Below, piece by piece: positions 20,271 through 26,096 of a stretch of DNA of 64,000 bases. The translations under genes were made by a program, and so were the position numbers. Each line of letters opens with the position of its first letter. Position 1 is the first letter of the stretch. This DNA comes from Megasphaera sp. (GTDB lineage: Bacteria > Bacillota > Negativicutes > Veillonellales > Megasphaeraceae): assembly GCA_022486585.1 (NCBI GenBank), contig JAKVKI010000001.1, positions 1-64,000 of the forward strand, given 5' to 3'. Below the pieces are notes generated by a model. That model saw nothing but the letters and a program-made list of their open reading frames with translations, did no database searches and was not told the origin of the DNA.

Positions 20271-21437
20271 TTAGTACCACCGGGTCATAGGCAATTCATT
20301 ATTCACGCCTTTGGTCATAAGGAGTTCGTGCACATCGATCATGCCAATGTTAAAGGCAACGGCGCAGCCAACGAGGTATAGTTCCCACATCCGTACAAAT
20401 TCTTCCCCTTTTTCAGCCAATACGTTGTCGCGTACTGTTTCAAAATTATGGTACCAGCACATAAGTGTCTTGTAATAATGGCGCCGCAGGCTTTCAATAT
20501 CGATGATCCGGAAATCATAATCGTATGCCAAGGAAACGATTTCCCGTAAAGACGGCAACGTGCCGCCAGGAAAGATGTATTTACGCATCCAAGGGCTGCT
20601 GACGACTTCATCTAAACCGCTGATATAGTGCAACATGAACAATCCGCCTGGTTTAAGAATATGGCTCGCTGTTTCCATATATAAAGCATAGTTAGAACGA
20701 CCTACGTGTTCCAGCATACCTACACTGACGATCCGGTCAAAAACCATGCCCGTACCTTCAATATCGCGGTAATCCATAAGCTTGATTTCTACTTGTCCTT
20801 CCAAGCCCAAGGCCTGGATCCGTTCCTGTCCTTTTTTCCACTGTTCTTTACTAAGGGTGCATCCATAACCTTTGACACCATAGGTCTTGGCCGCTTCAAT
20901 GAGGAGATATCCCCAGCCGCAACCGATATCTAAAAGGGTCATGCCCTTTTCCAAATGAAGTTTTTCTAAAATATAATGGACTTTATTGTGCTGTGCCTGT
21001 TCCAGTGTATCTGTCTCATGTTTAAAATACGCACAGGAATAACTCATAGATGGATCCAGCCAAAGCTGATAAAAATCATTGCCAATATCATAATGGGAGG
21101 ATACTTGTTTTTTCTGTGCTTTTTTAGATTCTGAAGAAAAAAGAATACTGCCTAAGGCTGACTTATCCAATGAAAAGCGATCCTGTTGAGATAAGAAACA
21201 ACGCAGCGCTGTATATAAATTTCCTTCAATAGTAATATCTTTGCGCATATACGCTTCACCGAGAGCCAGCGATGTACTAGTCAACAGCTGTTTCTTGGAA
21301 ATGTTTTTATGGAGGGTCACATTGAACAATGGTGTCCCTTCTCCGATTGTATACATCTTGTCATGCATTTTCACAGTAAAACAGTATCGGTCAAAGCGTC
21401 CTAAGTAATGGATAATAAAATGATCTTCAAAAATCAT
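20271..21437 (-). CDS. cfa: Cyclopropane-fatty-acyl-phospholipid synthase
   Basis: This 388-residue SAM-dependent methyltransferase adds a methylene bridge to unsaturated acyl chains of membrane phospholipids. It shows an N-terminal CFA domain (about 10-90), YDIGNDFYQLWLDPSMSYSCAYF near 120-145, SAM motif LLDIGCGWGYLL near 170 and the conserved GMLEHVG. The in-frame TTG at 21446 touches the GGAG site, so the ATG nine bases downstream of GGAG (21437) is chosen. It follows the lytS gene by about 110 bases and may be co-transcribed. Confidence 0.93.
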   Translation of the reverse strand: MIFEDHFIIHYLGRFDRYCFTVKMHDKMYTIGEGTPLFNVTLHKNISKKQLLTSTSLALGEAYMRKDITIEGNLYTALRCFLSQQDRFSLDKSALGSILFSSESKKAQKKQVSSHYDIGNDFYQLWLDPSMSYSCAYFKHETDTLEQAQHNKVHYILEKLHLEKGMTLLDIGCGWGYLLIEAAKTYGVKGYGCTLSKEQWKKGQERIQALGLEGQVEIKLMDYRDIEGTGMVFDRIVSVGMLEHVGRSNYALYMETASHILKPGGLFMLHYISGLDEVVSSPWMRKYIFPGGTLPSLREIVSLAYDYDFRIIDIESLRRHYYKTLMCWYHNFETVRDNVLAEKGEEFVRMWELYLVGCAVAFNIGMIDVHELLMTKGVNNELPMTRWY

Positions 21438-21546
21438 GGTCAGCAACTCCTTTTGTATCTTACTGCCATTCTAGTCCCTGACCAGGCAAAAAACAAGAAC
21501 GGCCGTGTGAAATGGTCATATTCCCTCGTAAGCTACGACATTCCCG

Positions 21547-23172
21547 TCATGAACAGAGGTCATTGGTCCAGGGAATATCGAATTCCACTGTCGTTCCTGC
21601 CCCCATGTGGCTATGCACGGCAAAATGGCAGTCAGCACCATGGATTCGGCGCAGACGGTCATAAATATTTTTCAGCCCAATGCCCGTCCCGGCCAATTCA
21701 AACGGACCGCCGTCGAGATGGCGCTGCAATGCCTGCAAAGCGTGACTGTCCATACCGATACCGTTGTCGCTCACTGCTATATGGAGGCGGGAGTCATCAT
21801 GCGTAGCGGTAATTTGGATGATACCGCCGTTCTTCTTCTTGACTAAGCCATGTTTGATCGCATTTTCCACCAGTATTTGGATAGAAAAGAAGGGAATCTT
21901 CTGCAATACGGTTTCTTTGGAAATATGCTGCTGTATTGTGAGCCGTTTGCCGTAACGGGCTTTTTCCAGTCGTAAGTACGAATCAACTGAATCCATTTCT
22001 TCTTCTAACGTCACTTCTTCTTCGTTCGACTGCAGACGGCCTCTCAAAAAAGATGATAAGTCACAAATAAGCTCTTTAGCTTGTTCCGGATTTTCTCCAA
22101 TAATGGCTTTAATGTTACTAAGCATATTGAATAGGAAGTGCGGTCGTATTTGTGATTTTAAGACATTCAATTCGGCCTGTGACAAAAGTACGGTCTTTTG
22201 ATCCAGTTCGACTTGATACAACTCTAAACTGAAAAAATCGGCAATCCCCTGCATCCATTGTTGTTCATATGGTAAAAAACGGCGTTTGCCCGGACGGCAC
22301 AATAAGATCTGTGCTACGGTTTTATGATTGATATCAATAGATAAATGCAGGCAATATTTACTTGCTAGTGCCGGTATATGACCATTGCGATTCATTTCCG
22401 CCAAGATTCCTGCGTCTGTTCTAACGGCTACATACGTAACATCGAGGATATCAAACATCGTCGCAACGATTTTCTGCGCTGATTCTTTATTTAGTCCATC
22501 ACTGCGAAAAACGTCCCTTGTCGCCAAAATGATCTGTATTACTTTACGAGCAGCTTGTGCTTTTGTTCTATCTTCTTCGGTAAAGACATCACGAATGATA
22601 TACACGGATACGAGTACGCCAAGACAGGTCGACAGGACTACAGGTACGGCTATTGCCTTTTCCAATTCAAAAACATACGTCGGTATGGTCAATACCAATA
22701 TGACCATTTTCAACAGGACTTCAGAAATAAAAGCTACGACGAAAGCAATCTTCATAGAAATCTGACGGGCACCGAAATGGAGACATACAAGGCCGCTGAA
22801 CAATCCAATGATAATATTAGCTGCCATCGCTGCCAAGACAACATTCTTACCACCTATCGAAATAAAATATCGTGGTATCATACCAATAATGCCAGCACCA
22901 ATACCAACAACAGGACCTCCGAAAAGGCCGCCGACAATAACGCCGACCAAGCGGGTATGCGCCATGACCTCTTGTCCGAACGGTACATTCAGAAAATTAC
23001 CGACTGCTGACAGCAAGCCGAAAACAGCGATGAGAATACATCGGTCACCGCGAGAATACCCGGCCTGATTGATAGCCCGGCGAAAGGATGTACATTGCGT
23101 CACTAAATACATCAAAATGGCAATAACAGATATATTTTTAATGATTTCCAAAAATAAAGTTCCATCATTCAT
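21547..23172 (-). CDS. lytS: LytS-type sensor histidine kinase
   Basis: This 541-residue kinase has a 5TM-LYT membrane region (about 1-170), a GAF-like middle (about 200-330), a His_kinase domain with QIRPHFLFNMLSNI (phospho-acceptor His), and an HATPase domain (VENAIKHGLVKK, SDNGIGM). Such LytS/YpdA kinases respond to cell-wall state or extracellular pyruvate. ATG codons at 23208 and 23196 are also in frame, but AGAAGGG lies nine bases before 23172, and a promoter just upstream would make the first ATG nearly leaderless. Its regulator gene lies upstream, separated by a structured 300-base gap. Confidence 0.85.
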   Translation of the reverse strand: MNDGTLFLEIIKNISVIAILMYLVTQCTSFRRAINQAGYSRGDRCILIAVFGLLSAVGNFLNVPFGQEVMAHTRLVGVIVGGLFGGPVVGIGAGIIGMIPRYFISIGGKNVVLAAMAANIIIGLFSGLVCLHFGARQISMKIAFVVAFISEVLLKMVILVLTIPTYVFELEKAIAVPVVLSTCLGVLVSVYIIRDVFTEEDRTKAQAARKVIQIILATRDVFRSDGLNKESAQKIVATMFDILDVTYVAVRTDAGILAEMNRNGHIPALASKYCLHLSIDINHKTVAQILLCRPGKRRFLPYEQQWMQGIADFFSLELYQVELDQKTVLLSQAELNVLKSQIRPHFLFNMLSNIKAIIGENPEQAKELICDLSSFLRGRLQSNEEEVTLEEEMDSVDSYLRLEKARYGKRLTIQQHISKETVLQKIPFFSIQILVENAIKHGLVKKKNGGIIQITATHDDSRLHIAVSDNGIGMDSHALQALQRHLDGGPFELAGTGIGLKNIYDRLRRIHGADCHFAVHSHMGAGTTVEFDIPWTNDLCS

Positions 23173-23216
23173 AAGAAGCATCCCTTCTATTGGCATATAA
23201 TATGACATCTCCTCTC

Positions 23217-23246
23217 AGTATAGCCCATCTTTTTCAGCCATGCCAA
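23217..23246 (-). promoter_or_regulatory. Candidate lytS promoter
   Basis: On the minus strand TTGGCA (plus 23241-23246) and TATACT (plus 23217-23222) are 18 bases apart. The -35 overlaps the outer end of the terminator stem. Confidence 0.4.
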
Positions 23247-23296
23247 CAAAAAAGCAAACCCTATAGGCAAGAGCCTACGGGTTTGCTTTTTGTTGG
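23243..23296. terminator. Bidirectional terminator between lytT and lytS
   Basis: AAACCC, TAGGC, a four-base loop, GCCTA and GGGTTT form the core, followed by GCTTTTT on both strands. The T/A arms also pair, making a stem that reaches CCAACA/TGTTGG. On the minus strand it follows the structured region 23304-23516. Confidence 0.75.
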
Positions 23297-23303
23297 CTGG
23301 TAC

Positions 23304-23516
23304 TGCGAAGCATTATAAGAAAGCATAAACATTGTTGGGATCGAAGTTAAATGTACCGTTGCATAATGTCTATCGCATACCCACGGGCAACGACCAGTCA
23401 GAATAGTTCGTGAAGAGCACCATTCCTCTTGAACATATCCATCTTACCTATAAGCGGGCAAGACTGCAAGGTTTCGGCAGTGAACAGCAGAAATCGTGTC
23501 ATGAACTACGTCGCAG
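23304..23516 (-). ncRNA. Candidate structured RNA between lytT and lytS
   Basis: No reading frame of the minus strand fits this gap, but complementary segments are dense. CTGCGA (23304-23309) pairs with TCGCAG (23511-23516) at the two ends. CGTTGC pairs with GCAACG (about 23357-23392). AAGAG pairs with CTCTT inside GTTC/GAAC (about 23406-23434). ACTGC pairs with GCAGT (about 23463-23481). TAGTTCGTGA (23404-23413) pairs with TCATGAACTA (23499-23508) as an alternative. A terminator follows on the minus strand. I do not recognise SRP, RNase P, tmRNA or a known riboswitch core. The strand is uncertain: the long helix has a G-U pair only on the plus strand. Confidence 0.35.
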
Positions 23517-23521
23517 GACGG

Positions 23522-24265
23522 TTAAAATTCCACATATGATTTCAATGTATCGACATAGACCCGTCCTACTGGTATTTCTAATTCTTTGTCACCTTTAAGG
23601 ACTAATATATAACCCCGCTTGAACCACGTCTTAATCTGTTTGATTTCATTTACATTGACAATATAACTGCGATGACAACGGAAAAATAAATCTTTAGGCA
23701 GCCGGGCTTCCATATCCCGCAAGGTCATACGTGCTTCATGGACATCACCATTAATCATGACGATATGAATATACCGTTTTTCACCATAAATGACCCTGAT
23801 TTTCCGACAATCGATTACTTCCATCGTATCCCCTTTATCAACGGCCATACGACGTATGGTGTCACTAGGTTGCAACATCTCCGTCTTGGGCATAAAGGAA
23901 AGGACACGGCGGCTCCGATCTAAAATGCGACGAAGTTTCCGCTTATCAATAGGTTTGAGTATATAATCAACAGCATTGACATCAAAGGCTTTAAGAGCAA
24001 ATTCATCATATGCCGTCAAAAAGACGATTGCCGGGCCGTCTTCCATCTTAGTTACAGTATTGGCAACTTCCAGTCCATTAATGCCTGGCAGCTCTATATC
24101 CAGAAAGAGGAGATCCGGTTTATCCGTCATAATACGCGCCAATGCGGATTCACCGTCGCCACATATACCCAATACAGTCAGTTCCGGCTCCAGTTCGCTT
24201 ATCATAGACTGGAGTTCCCGAGCAACTGCTTCTTCGTCTTCTACAATCAGTAACGTCGCTTTCAT
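23522..24265 (-). CDS. lytT: LytTR-family response regulator
   Basis: This 247-residue regulator has a receiver domain (about 4-120) with acidic ED at 9-10 and phospho-acceptor Asp56 (LLFLDIELPG), and a LytTR DNA-binding domain (about 140-245) with CRKIRVIYGEKRYI and FFRCHRSYIVNVNEI. It pairs with the LytS-type kinase downstream. The start has AAGGAGG. It follows the radical SAM gene by 15 bases, so those two genes are probably co-transcribed. Confidence 0.9.
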   Translation of the reverse strand: MKATLLIVEDEEAVARELQSMISELEPELTVLGICGDGESALARIMTDKPDLLFLDIELPGINGLEVANTVTKMEDGPAIVFLTAYDEFALKAFDVNAVDYILKPIDKRKLRRILDRSRRVLSFMPKTEMLQPSDTIRRMAVDKGDTMEVIDCRKIRVIYGEKRYIHIVMINGDVHEARMTLRDMEARLPKDLFFRCHRSYIVNVNEIKQIKTWFKRGYILVLKGDKELEIPVGRVYVDTLKSYVEF

Positions 24266-24280: not shown

Positions 24281-25324
24281 TCATTCATCTGGCATAAAAT
24301 GATATTCCATAGTCAGTTCAGAAGTCCCTACACGGATAGTGCCTGCAGGTAAGGAATTATCTTCGCGCCAGCAAATGGGAAAGGAATATTTCTTCTGTGC
24401 TTCATGCATGGTTTGTTTCCTGTACCCACGGACACGCGATGTATCTTTACGGTTATAGGAAATCGTAATATATCCCGGTCGTACTGCATCGAGAACAGCG
24501 AATATTTTTTTACGATAGCGCAATGCATCTGTCATTTCTCCCATAGCCGGCGTATACGCTCCGCCTAAGACCTGCGTATCATCATCAAGATCAGCTGTCG
24601 CCTGCAGGCCTGTACGGATGACCTGGATATGTGCTTCTATAAAAGCCTGCTTCATATACGCAGCTCTGCGGACACCTTCTTGCACCGTAAGCGGCGTATA
24701 TTTTCCCTCACGATACAACTGTGCCAATTCCGTATGTTCCAAAACCGCGACTGGATAAATACGCGCTATATCCGGATGAAGGCGGCATATAGCCGCCGTC
24801 GTCTTTTCCAAGCTAGGCCAGTCTTCGTCTGGCAGTCCCGGCATAAGCTGGTGTCCTACAATAAAGCCGCGGCTCCGCAACAGCGCCGTTGCAGCTTCTA
24901 CTTGAGATGCTGTATGTCCCCGTTTGGCCTTCGCCAAAACGGCGTCATCCATGGACTGGACACCGAGCTCAACAATAGTCACACCGTAATGGTCCAGTCG
25001 GTCCATTACGGTTCTATCGATGCAATCCGGGCGGGTCGAACAGCGGATACGCTGAATCAGTCCCGCTTCCAATGCTTTTTGCGCCGGCTCTAACAGTTTT
25101 TCCTGTAAAGCGGCTGGCACCGCTGTAAAGCTGCCACCGTAAAAGGCTATTTCCCAGTGCCGTTTTTCTTGAACGCCTCTGGTATAAGAAATGACCGCTT
25201 TTTGGATATCATCTGCTGAAGGAATACCGTGATGCCCTGTAATCTGCCATTGATTACAGAATACACAGCGATGGGGACAGCCAATATGGGGAATAAAAAT
25301 GGGGATAATCGATGTTTTTATCAT
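24281..25324 (-). CDS. Radical SAM protein, Elp3-like
   Basis: This 347-residue radical SAM enzyme carries the cluster motif CPHRCVFC near 16-23, FYGGSFTAVP and ELGVQSMDDAVLAKAKRGHT, in the arrangement of the Elp3/oxygen-independent coproporphyrinogen oxidase-like group. There is no acetyltransferase domain. The C-terminal part (GGAYTPAMGEMTDALRYR) matches a conserved bacterial family of unknown exact substrate. An ATG at 25396 is in frame but would start inside the rnc terminator, so 25324 is preferred. It sits between rnc and the lytTS genes. Confidence 0.75.
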   Translation of the reverse strand: MIKTSIIPIFIPHIGCPHRCVFCNQWQITGHHGIPSADDIQKAVISYTRGVQEKRHWEIAFYGGSFTAVPAALQEKLLEPAQKALEAGLIQRIRCSTRPDCIDRTVMDRLDHYGVTIVELGVQSMDDAVLAKAKRGHTASQVEAATALLRSRGFIVGHQLMPGLPDEDWPSLEKTTAAICRLHPDIARIYPVAVLEHTELAQLYREGKYTPLTVQEGVRRAAYMKQAFIEAHIQVIRTGLQATADLDDDTQVLGGAYTPAMGEMTDALRYRKKIFAVLDAVRPGYITISYNRKDTSRVRGYRKQTMHEAQKKYSFPICWREDNSLPAGTIRVGTSELTMEYHFMPDE

Positions 25325-25354
25325 AGTTACGACCGTTCTTTTATTAATAGCTGC

Positions 25355-25387
25355 TAAAAAAGGATGCGGCAAAGCCGCATCCTTTTT
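25355..25387 (-). terminator. Terminator overlapping the rnc stop codon
   Basis: AAAAGGATGCGGC, TTT, GCCGCATCCTTTTTT on the minus strand. The 5' arm of the stem includes part of the rnc stop codon. It ends the fatty-acid operon. Confidence 0.8.
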
Positions 25388-26096
25388 ATATAGCATGTAA
25401 ATGCATCAATGCTTCATGAGCAGCATGCTGCTCTGCATCTTTTTTTGTTTTGCCAGCACCTTCACCTAAGACGCTGCCATTGACAATGACTTCCATATAA
25501 AAAGTCTTATCATGGTCTGGCCCTTCTTGCCGGCATAATTGATATGCAATAATATGCTCGCCATCGCGTTGAATAAATTCCTGAAACAGTGTTTTATAGT
25601 CTTTGCCGTAGTCGCCTTTAGCAACTAGTTCTAAATATCCTTTGAGCTGATGCAAAATAAACTTGCGGGCTTCTTCATACGTTGAATCAATATAAATAGC
25701 TCCAACAACTGCTTCAAAAGCATCTGCCATGATACTGGCTCTGGTTCTTCCTCCAGAAGCCAGTTCACCTTTCCCTAATAAAATATATTCACCCATGTGG
25801 AAAGACGCACATACAGCTGCTAGCGGCGTTTCACTGACTACACTGGCTCTTGCTTTGGATAATTCACCTTCAGGCATATGCGGATATTGGAGAAATAAAT
25901 ATTCACCAACAACTAAATCTAAAATAGCATCGCCTAAAAATTCTAATCGTTCATTATAAAAACCATGTTTGCCTTTATTTTCATTAGCGTAGGACGAATG
26001 GGTCAATGCCTTATCTAAGATAGACAATTGATGGAATTGTTCTAAGCCGAGTATACTGATAAATTTTTCTAATTGTTCTTTTCTTAGCCTATCCAT
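25386..26096 (-). CDS. rnc: Ribonuclease III
   Basis: This 236-residue enzyme cleaves double-stranded RNA such as rRNA precursors. It has the RNase III signature NERLEFLGDAILDL near 45-58, the second acidic site DAFEAVVGAIYID near 120, and a C-terminal dsRNA-binding domain (about 160-232, with GKTKKDAEQHAAHEALMHL). It is the last gene of the fab operon, 16 bases after fabF, an arrangement common in Firmicutes. Confidence 0.96.
   Translation of the reverse strand: MDRLRKEQLEKFISILGLEQFHQLSILDKALTHSSYANENKGKHGFYNERLEFLGDAILDLVVGEYLFLQYPHMPEGELSKARASVVSETPLAAVCASFHMGEYILLGKGELASGGRTRASIMADAFEAVVGAIYIDSTYEEARKFILHQLKGYLELVAKGDYGKDYKTLFQEFIQRDGEHIIAYQLCRQEGPDHDKTFYMEVIVNGSVLGEGAGKTKKDAEQHAAHEALMHLHAI

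Follow-up and report, generated by a model that had tools for sequence, protein, structure and literature searches.

A probable LytTR-type promoter and a predicted untranslated RNA between lytT and lytS in a Megasphaera-type genome

Introduction

The response regulator gene lytT and the sensor kinase gene lytS of a Megasphaera-type genome are separated by a gap, and the question that this locus raises is what the gap holds. It lies in a stretch of 64,000 nucleotides, referred to here as a whole as the window, that belongs to the draft MAG G000 (1.9 Mb, 47 contigs, 83% complete). The initial annotation had described the gap as a structured region, with a riboswitch or attenuator controlling lytS as one reading and a free-standing RNA as the other. 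In place of this loosely defined “structured RNA”, our analysis offers a regulatory site that can be tested, of an ordinary kind and newly recognised. We hold it quite probable that the gap consists of a LytT-activated promoter and a terminated untranslated RNA of ~190 nt, that lytS is read from a promoter of its own, and that the locus is a broken-up version of an operon carried by a relative, G008.

Results

Gene order around the gap

On the minus strand of the window, a radical-SAM gene (24281-25396) is followed by lytT, the gap, lytS and cfa.

23522..24265, minus strand: lytT, response regulator with LytTR DNA-binding domain (Pfam Response_reg and LytTR)
21547..23208, minus strand: lytS, 5TM-5TMR_LYT sensor histidine kinase (Pfam 5TM-5TMR_LYT, His_kinase and HATPase_c)
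20271..21446, minus strand: cfa-like cyclopropane fatty acid synthase (Pfam CMAS, NCBIfam)

The top NCBIfam match of LytT was BtsR, at a score under the BtsR cut-off, and the LytR cut-off was likewise not reached. As judged by eye against the start of lytS in G008, the true start of the window lytS is likely at 23172 (AGAAGG, then ATGAATGATGG) and not at the first ATG at 23208. The gap occupies exactly 23209-23521 and, as initially annotated, is devoid of any substantial open reading frame, the longest frames on the minus strand being 34, 27 and 23 aa.

A probable LytTR-type promoter directly downstream of lytT

The first ~80 bases of the gap, read on the minus strand, are filled by a promoter which, judged by its sequence, is of the LytTR type, with the arrangement GTAGTTCAT-N12-GCTGTTCAC-N10-TTGCAG-N17-TAAGAT and a geometry exactly as published.

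23501..23509, minus strand: LytTR box 1, GTAGTTCAT, direct repeat 12 bp before box 2
23480..23488, minus strand: LytTR box 2, GCTGTTCAC, second direct repeat
23464..23469, minus strand: -35 element TTGCAG, 10 bp past box 2, at the same position in three promoters
23441..23446, minus strand: -10 element TAAGAT, 17 bp past the -35

In a survey of LytTR promoters, most pairs of 9-bp repeats had 12 bp between them and strongly favoured a position 10 bp before the -35 (PMC6193735). Promoters of this class have two 9-bp direct repeats separated by 11-13 bp; here the separation is 12 bp (23509-23480), and the repeats stand about 10 bp before the -35, which is followed by a sigma-70-like -10. The core promoter TTGCAG-17-TAAGAT is weak, and box 2 agrees by our scoring at 6 of 9 positions, a modest match, with the LytTR 9-mer consensus. 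We infer from the sequence that LytT binds these repeats, as well as the direction of regulation; alternatively, the protein that binds them could be C24, a LytT paralogue with 38% identity.

Recurrence of the promoter within the genus

The only relative with a close LytT is G008 (74% identical to LytT of the window). When the stretches behind the lytT genes of the two genomes were compared, a single short collinear match emerged, and it consists of a direct repeat. It reads GTAGTTCAT-N12-GCTGTTCAC in the window and GCAGTTCAT-N12-CCTGTTTAC in G008, where the pair lies likewise just downstream of lytT with the same 12-bp spacing. In both genomes, the -35 is found 10 bp past the second repeat and the -10 a further 17 bp on (TTGCAG/TAAGAT in the window, TTGTTT/TACGAT in G008).

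The LytTR promoter of G008 precedes a radical-SAM/SPASM gene, which is followed by lytS and then cfa. G000 carries an orthologue of this radical-SAM/SPASM gene (82% identical to G008) on contig C14 (L095, 3088-4497, minus strand), and shortly before its start stands ACTGTTCAT-N12-CCCGTTCAT-N10-TTGACC-N17-TATGAT, with identical spacing. The best NCBIfam matches of the C14 protein were NirJ2, AhbD and mycofactocin, all far under cut-off.

Scanning 15 genus genomes with the full 66-base pattern at 0 mismatches returned three sites only, namely the gap, the C14 radical-SAM gene and the radical-SAM-lytS-cfa operon of G008; the pattern was absent at this setting from the other 13 genomes. Both genomes with a site, G000 and G008, are those of the genus that have the close LytT, a recurrence limited to one relative. 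For comparison, the reversed pattern gave ~12 matches at <=2 mismatches in all genomes together, and a Markov model of the window gave none with 0 or 1 mismatch over 20 Mb, the rate with <=2 being 0.05 per Mb per strand. Because the sites later found had also supplied the pattern, their 0-mismatch status is partly built in. Since the pattern is partly fitted, the strongest independent points are the core promoter of the third site, the place before orthologous genes and the published geometry.

The sole other match within the window at <=3 mismatches lies in the lytS-cfa gap.

21468..21536, minus strand: probable degenerate LytTR promoter of cfa, GTAGCTTAC-12-CCATTTCAC-10-TTGTTT-17-TAGAAT, 2 mismatches to the 66-base pattern

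This LytTR-like copy suggests that membrane cyclopropane fatty acids may be under LytT control. A further lytS-lytT pair was observed in G010 on C5 (LytS 53% and LytT 49% identical), in the order ADH-lytS-lytT. No 0-mismatch match to the LytTR promoter pattern accompanies this pair, and thus the locus is not uniform across the species of the genus.

Terminator and predicted transcript

The strong terminator reported ahead of lytS is real, and with T-runs at both sides it is possibly bidirectional. No terminator-like site was found in the corresponding stretch of G008.

23238..23300, minus strand: strong intrinsic terminator (in narrower bounds 23242-23297), -41.3 kcal/mol, z -10
23243..23434, minus strand: predicted LytT-dependent untranslated RNA of ~190 nt, deduced from promoter and terminator
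23217..23246, minus strand: promoter-like site for lytS, TTGGCA-18-TATACT, 10/12 consensus, beginning inside the terminator tail

The start of the predicted RNA, at ~23434, is placed 6-8 nt past the -10. The lytS promoter-like site is the only such site in 23100-23700; shuffles average 2.3, so taken alone it is weak evidence. Among 60-61 genomes of the order searched at the DNA level, no relatives of the RNA body were found, and the three short matches obtained (E 0.03-0.04) correspond to chance. Possible targets were sought at the starts of 50-odd window genes and of radical-SAM, lytS, lytT and cfa, and in this search of low power no pairing exceeded that of shuffled RNA.

Folding of the gap

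The initial annotation had drawn its structure from end-to-end complementarity, internal hairpins and a competing helix. The two end motifs, CTGCGA (23516-23511) and TCGCAG (23308-23303), are both present on the minus strand; a 6-bp match of this kind occurred in 0.5% of shuffles with fixed ends, the ends having been picked post hoc, and the 5′ arm of the resulting stem lies upstream of the predicted RNA. The claim of unusual structure did not hold: 23302-23516 folds on the minus strand at -51.5 kcal/mol, against a mean of -52.4 for dinucleotide shuffles (z +0.24), and the same control on the plus strand gave z +0.17. For the predicted transcript body, z was +0.9. Significant folding was confined to stretches containing the terminator (whole gap z -4.0, terminator alone z -10), and it is because of the terminator alone that the whole gap scores low.

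The 10-base helix (23404-23413 with 23499-23508) is indeed unbroken on the plus strand, with one G-U, but carries an A.C mismatch on the lytT-lytS strand, where the longest perfect helix reaches 9 pairs with G-U and 6 Watson-Crick pairs. Shuffles contained a helix of >=10 (G-U allowed) in 61% of cases and matched the Watson-Crick value in 97%. The helices of the supposed RNA switch do not exceed chance expectation. In fact, LytTR box 1 itself supplies the 5′ arm of the 10-base helix.

Searches against Rfam 15 (gathering threshold and E<=10) assigned no family to the gap and returned chance matches only, mostly microRNA models on the terminator hairpin. The covariance-model check that had been proposed, with 6S among the candidates, thus yielded no family, and 6S RNA was rejected as the identity of the gap, the covariance match lying elsewhere in the genome. 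The 6S RNA of G000 is found at C1:92491-92669 (minus strand, 84 bits), on the window's own contig but outside the window. Other candidates were also rejected. An RNA read from the plus strand was dismissed on its z of +0.17 and the lack of any plus-strand promoter-like site. A radical-SAM coding remnant was dismissed after low-word-size nucleotide comparison with the G008 locus gave no match, the gene being intact on another contig, and a mobile element with CTGCGA ends on its single copy and on the conserved promoter just inside the supposed end.

Discussion

The riboswitch or attenuator proposed for lytS, acting through mutually exclusive helices, would draw on the terminator just upstream of lytS and on some alternative helices that can be drawn. 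Yet no anti-terminator was found by alternative folding. Loss of the terminator costs 25-27 kcal/mol, and in the best fold without it the 5′ arm of the terminator pairs with nothing upstream, which argues that there is no switch of the proposed kind. Moreover, the body folds as shuffled sequences do (z +0.24 to +0.9), the claimed helix is mismatched on the lytT-lytS strand and has its 5′ arm in promoter DNA, and Rfam offers no match; the riboswitch reading is thus unsupported and extremely unlikely. The free-standing RNA is retained in modified form, as promoter and terminator predict a discrete transcript of ~190 nt, but on a basis other than the claimed structure. A coding role seems very improbable as well. 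A short peptide, for instance of 16 aa from a GTG after AAGAGGAATG, could be read where, by eye, a purine-rich stretch precedes the GTG by 3-4 nt and frame 2 is open for 16 codons; however, it would be very short, poorly spaced and without relatives, and its ribosome site would fall in the first hairpin.

The locus is carried by one relative only. The gap RNA may be an insulating leader, a relic or a small RNA. It is a rather doubtful proposal, though one with points in its favour, that the RNA induced by LytT works in trans as a small RNA; this would refine the promoter reading and give the Negativicutes an RNA similar to RNAIII or VR-RNA as effector of a BtsSR/LytSR-type system. The untranslated RNA is bounded by a LytTR promoter of its own and by a strong terminator, regulatory RNAs driven by LytTR regulators are known, and the promoter geometry is fully kept though no protein gene precedes the terminator. 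On the other hand, 61 genomes of the order yielded nothing related to the body, whose fold does not surpass that of shuffles and which shows no pairing with the tested gene starts beyond that of shuffled RNA. Perhaps the promoter is instead a relic of a G008-like radical-SAM-lytS operon, its RNA being idle; this too is compatible with the promoter reading, and we see it as conceivable while falling short of likely. It would fit a body without relatives, ORF or fold, and the fact that the equivalent G008 promoter serves radical-SAM, which in G000 lies on another contig behind a LytTR promoter of its own. Nonetheless, the geometry of the promoter is undamaged, lytS is directly preceded by a strong terminator, and a radical-SAM coding trace was not seen in the gap.

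In the reading that we prefer, of a LytT-activated promoter with a terminated RNA, LytT would bind the two direct repeats and activate RNA polymerase at the weak TTGCAG-17-TAAGAT core. The untranslated RNA would start near 23434 and stop at the intrinsic terminator near 23243, and lytS would be read from its own promoter-like site just past the terminator, as the consensus match suggests. The terminated RNA may in this way insulate lytS from the LytT feedback loop, and the kinase would thereby be uncoupled from the loop implied by the G008 arrangement, in which the equivalent promoter would drive radical-SAM, lytS and cfa as one row. If evolutionary change ran in this direction, the row was broken up in G000, with radical-SAM elsewhere under its own LytTR promoter and cfa probably under its own, while the gap promoter, once serving the row, would now feed the terminated RNA. 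The predicted RNA would lie where the nearest relative has its radical-SAM gene. The G008 gene order radical-SAM-lytS-cfa agrees with the placement of promoters in G000. Of the genes that make up the single G008 row, radical-SAM and probably cfa have LytTR promoters to themselves in G000, and that of lytS is cut off by a terminator.

A LytT regulon can thus be predicted for a BtsSR/LytSR-like system in Megasphaera, comprising a radical-SAM/SPASM enzyme, a cyclopropane fatty acid synthase and an untranslated RNA. Genes that form a single operon in one species are scattered in another, where LytTR promoters still accompany the individual pieces. An acting RNA would be a further case of a LytTR regulator with a small RNA beside agr and virSR.

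Comparison with known systems

The HdrR/BrsR and other LRS operons (PMC6193735) resemble this locus in having two 9-bp direct repeats, 12 bp apart and 10 bp before a weak -35, and in placing the site in the regulator's own locus. They differ in the repeats, which are ACCNCTTAN in LRS operons and NNNGTTYAY in the gap, and in encoding an LRS membrane-protein pair, whereas a response regulator and a kinase are found here and the gap promoter leads to an untranslated RNA and a terminator. BtsSR, YpdAB and LytSR are alike in combining a 5TM-5TMR_LYT kinase with a LytTR response regulator, and it is BtsR that LytT matches best in NCBIfam; unlike them, LytT falls under the BtsR and LytR cut-offs, and its apparent targets are radical-SAM/SPASM and cfa. 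RNAIII of S. aureus is driven by AgrA (PMC4227749), and VR-RNA of C. perfringens, whose ends are predicted to pair, is under VirR (PMC4963840). Although VR-RNA is longer (386 nt) and demonstrated to act, whereas the gap RNA is predicted from sequence and the 5′ arm of the gap's end-to-end stem is upstream of it, the locus shares with AgrA-RNAIII and VirR-VR-RNA a LytTR regulator and a promoter for an untranslated RNA.
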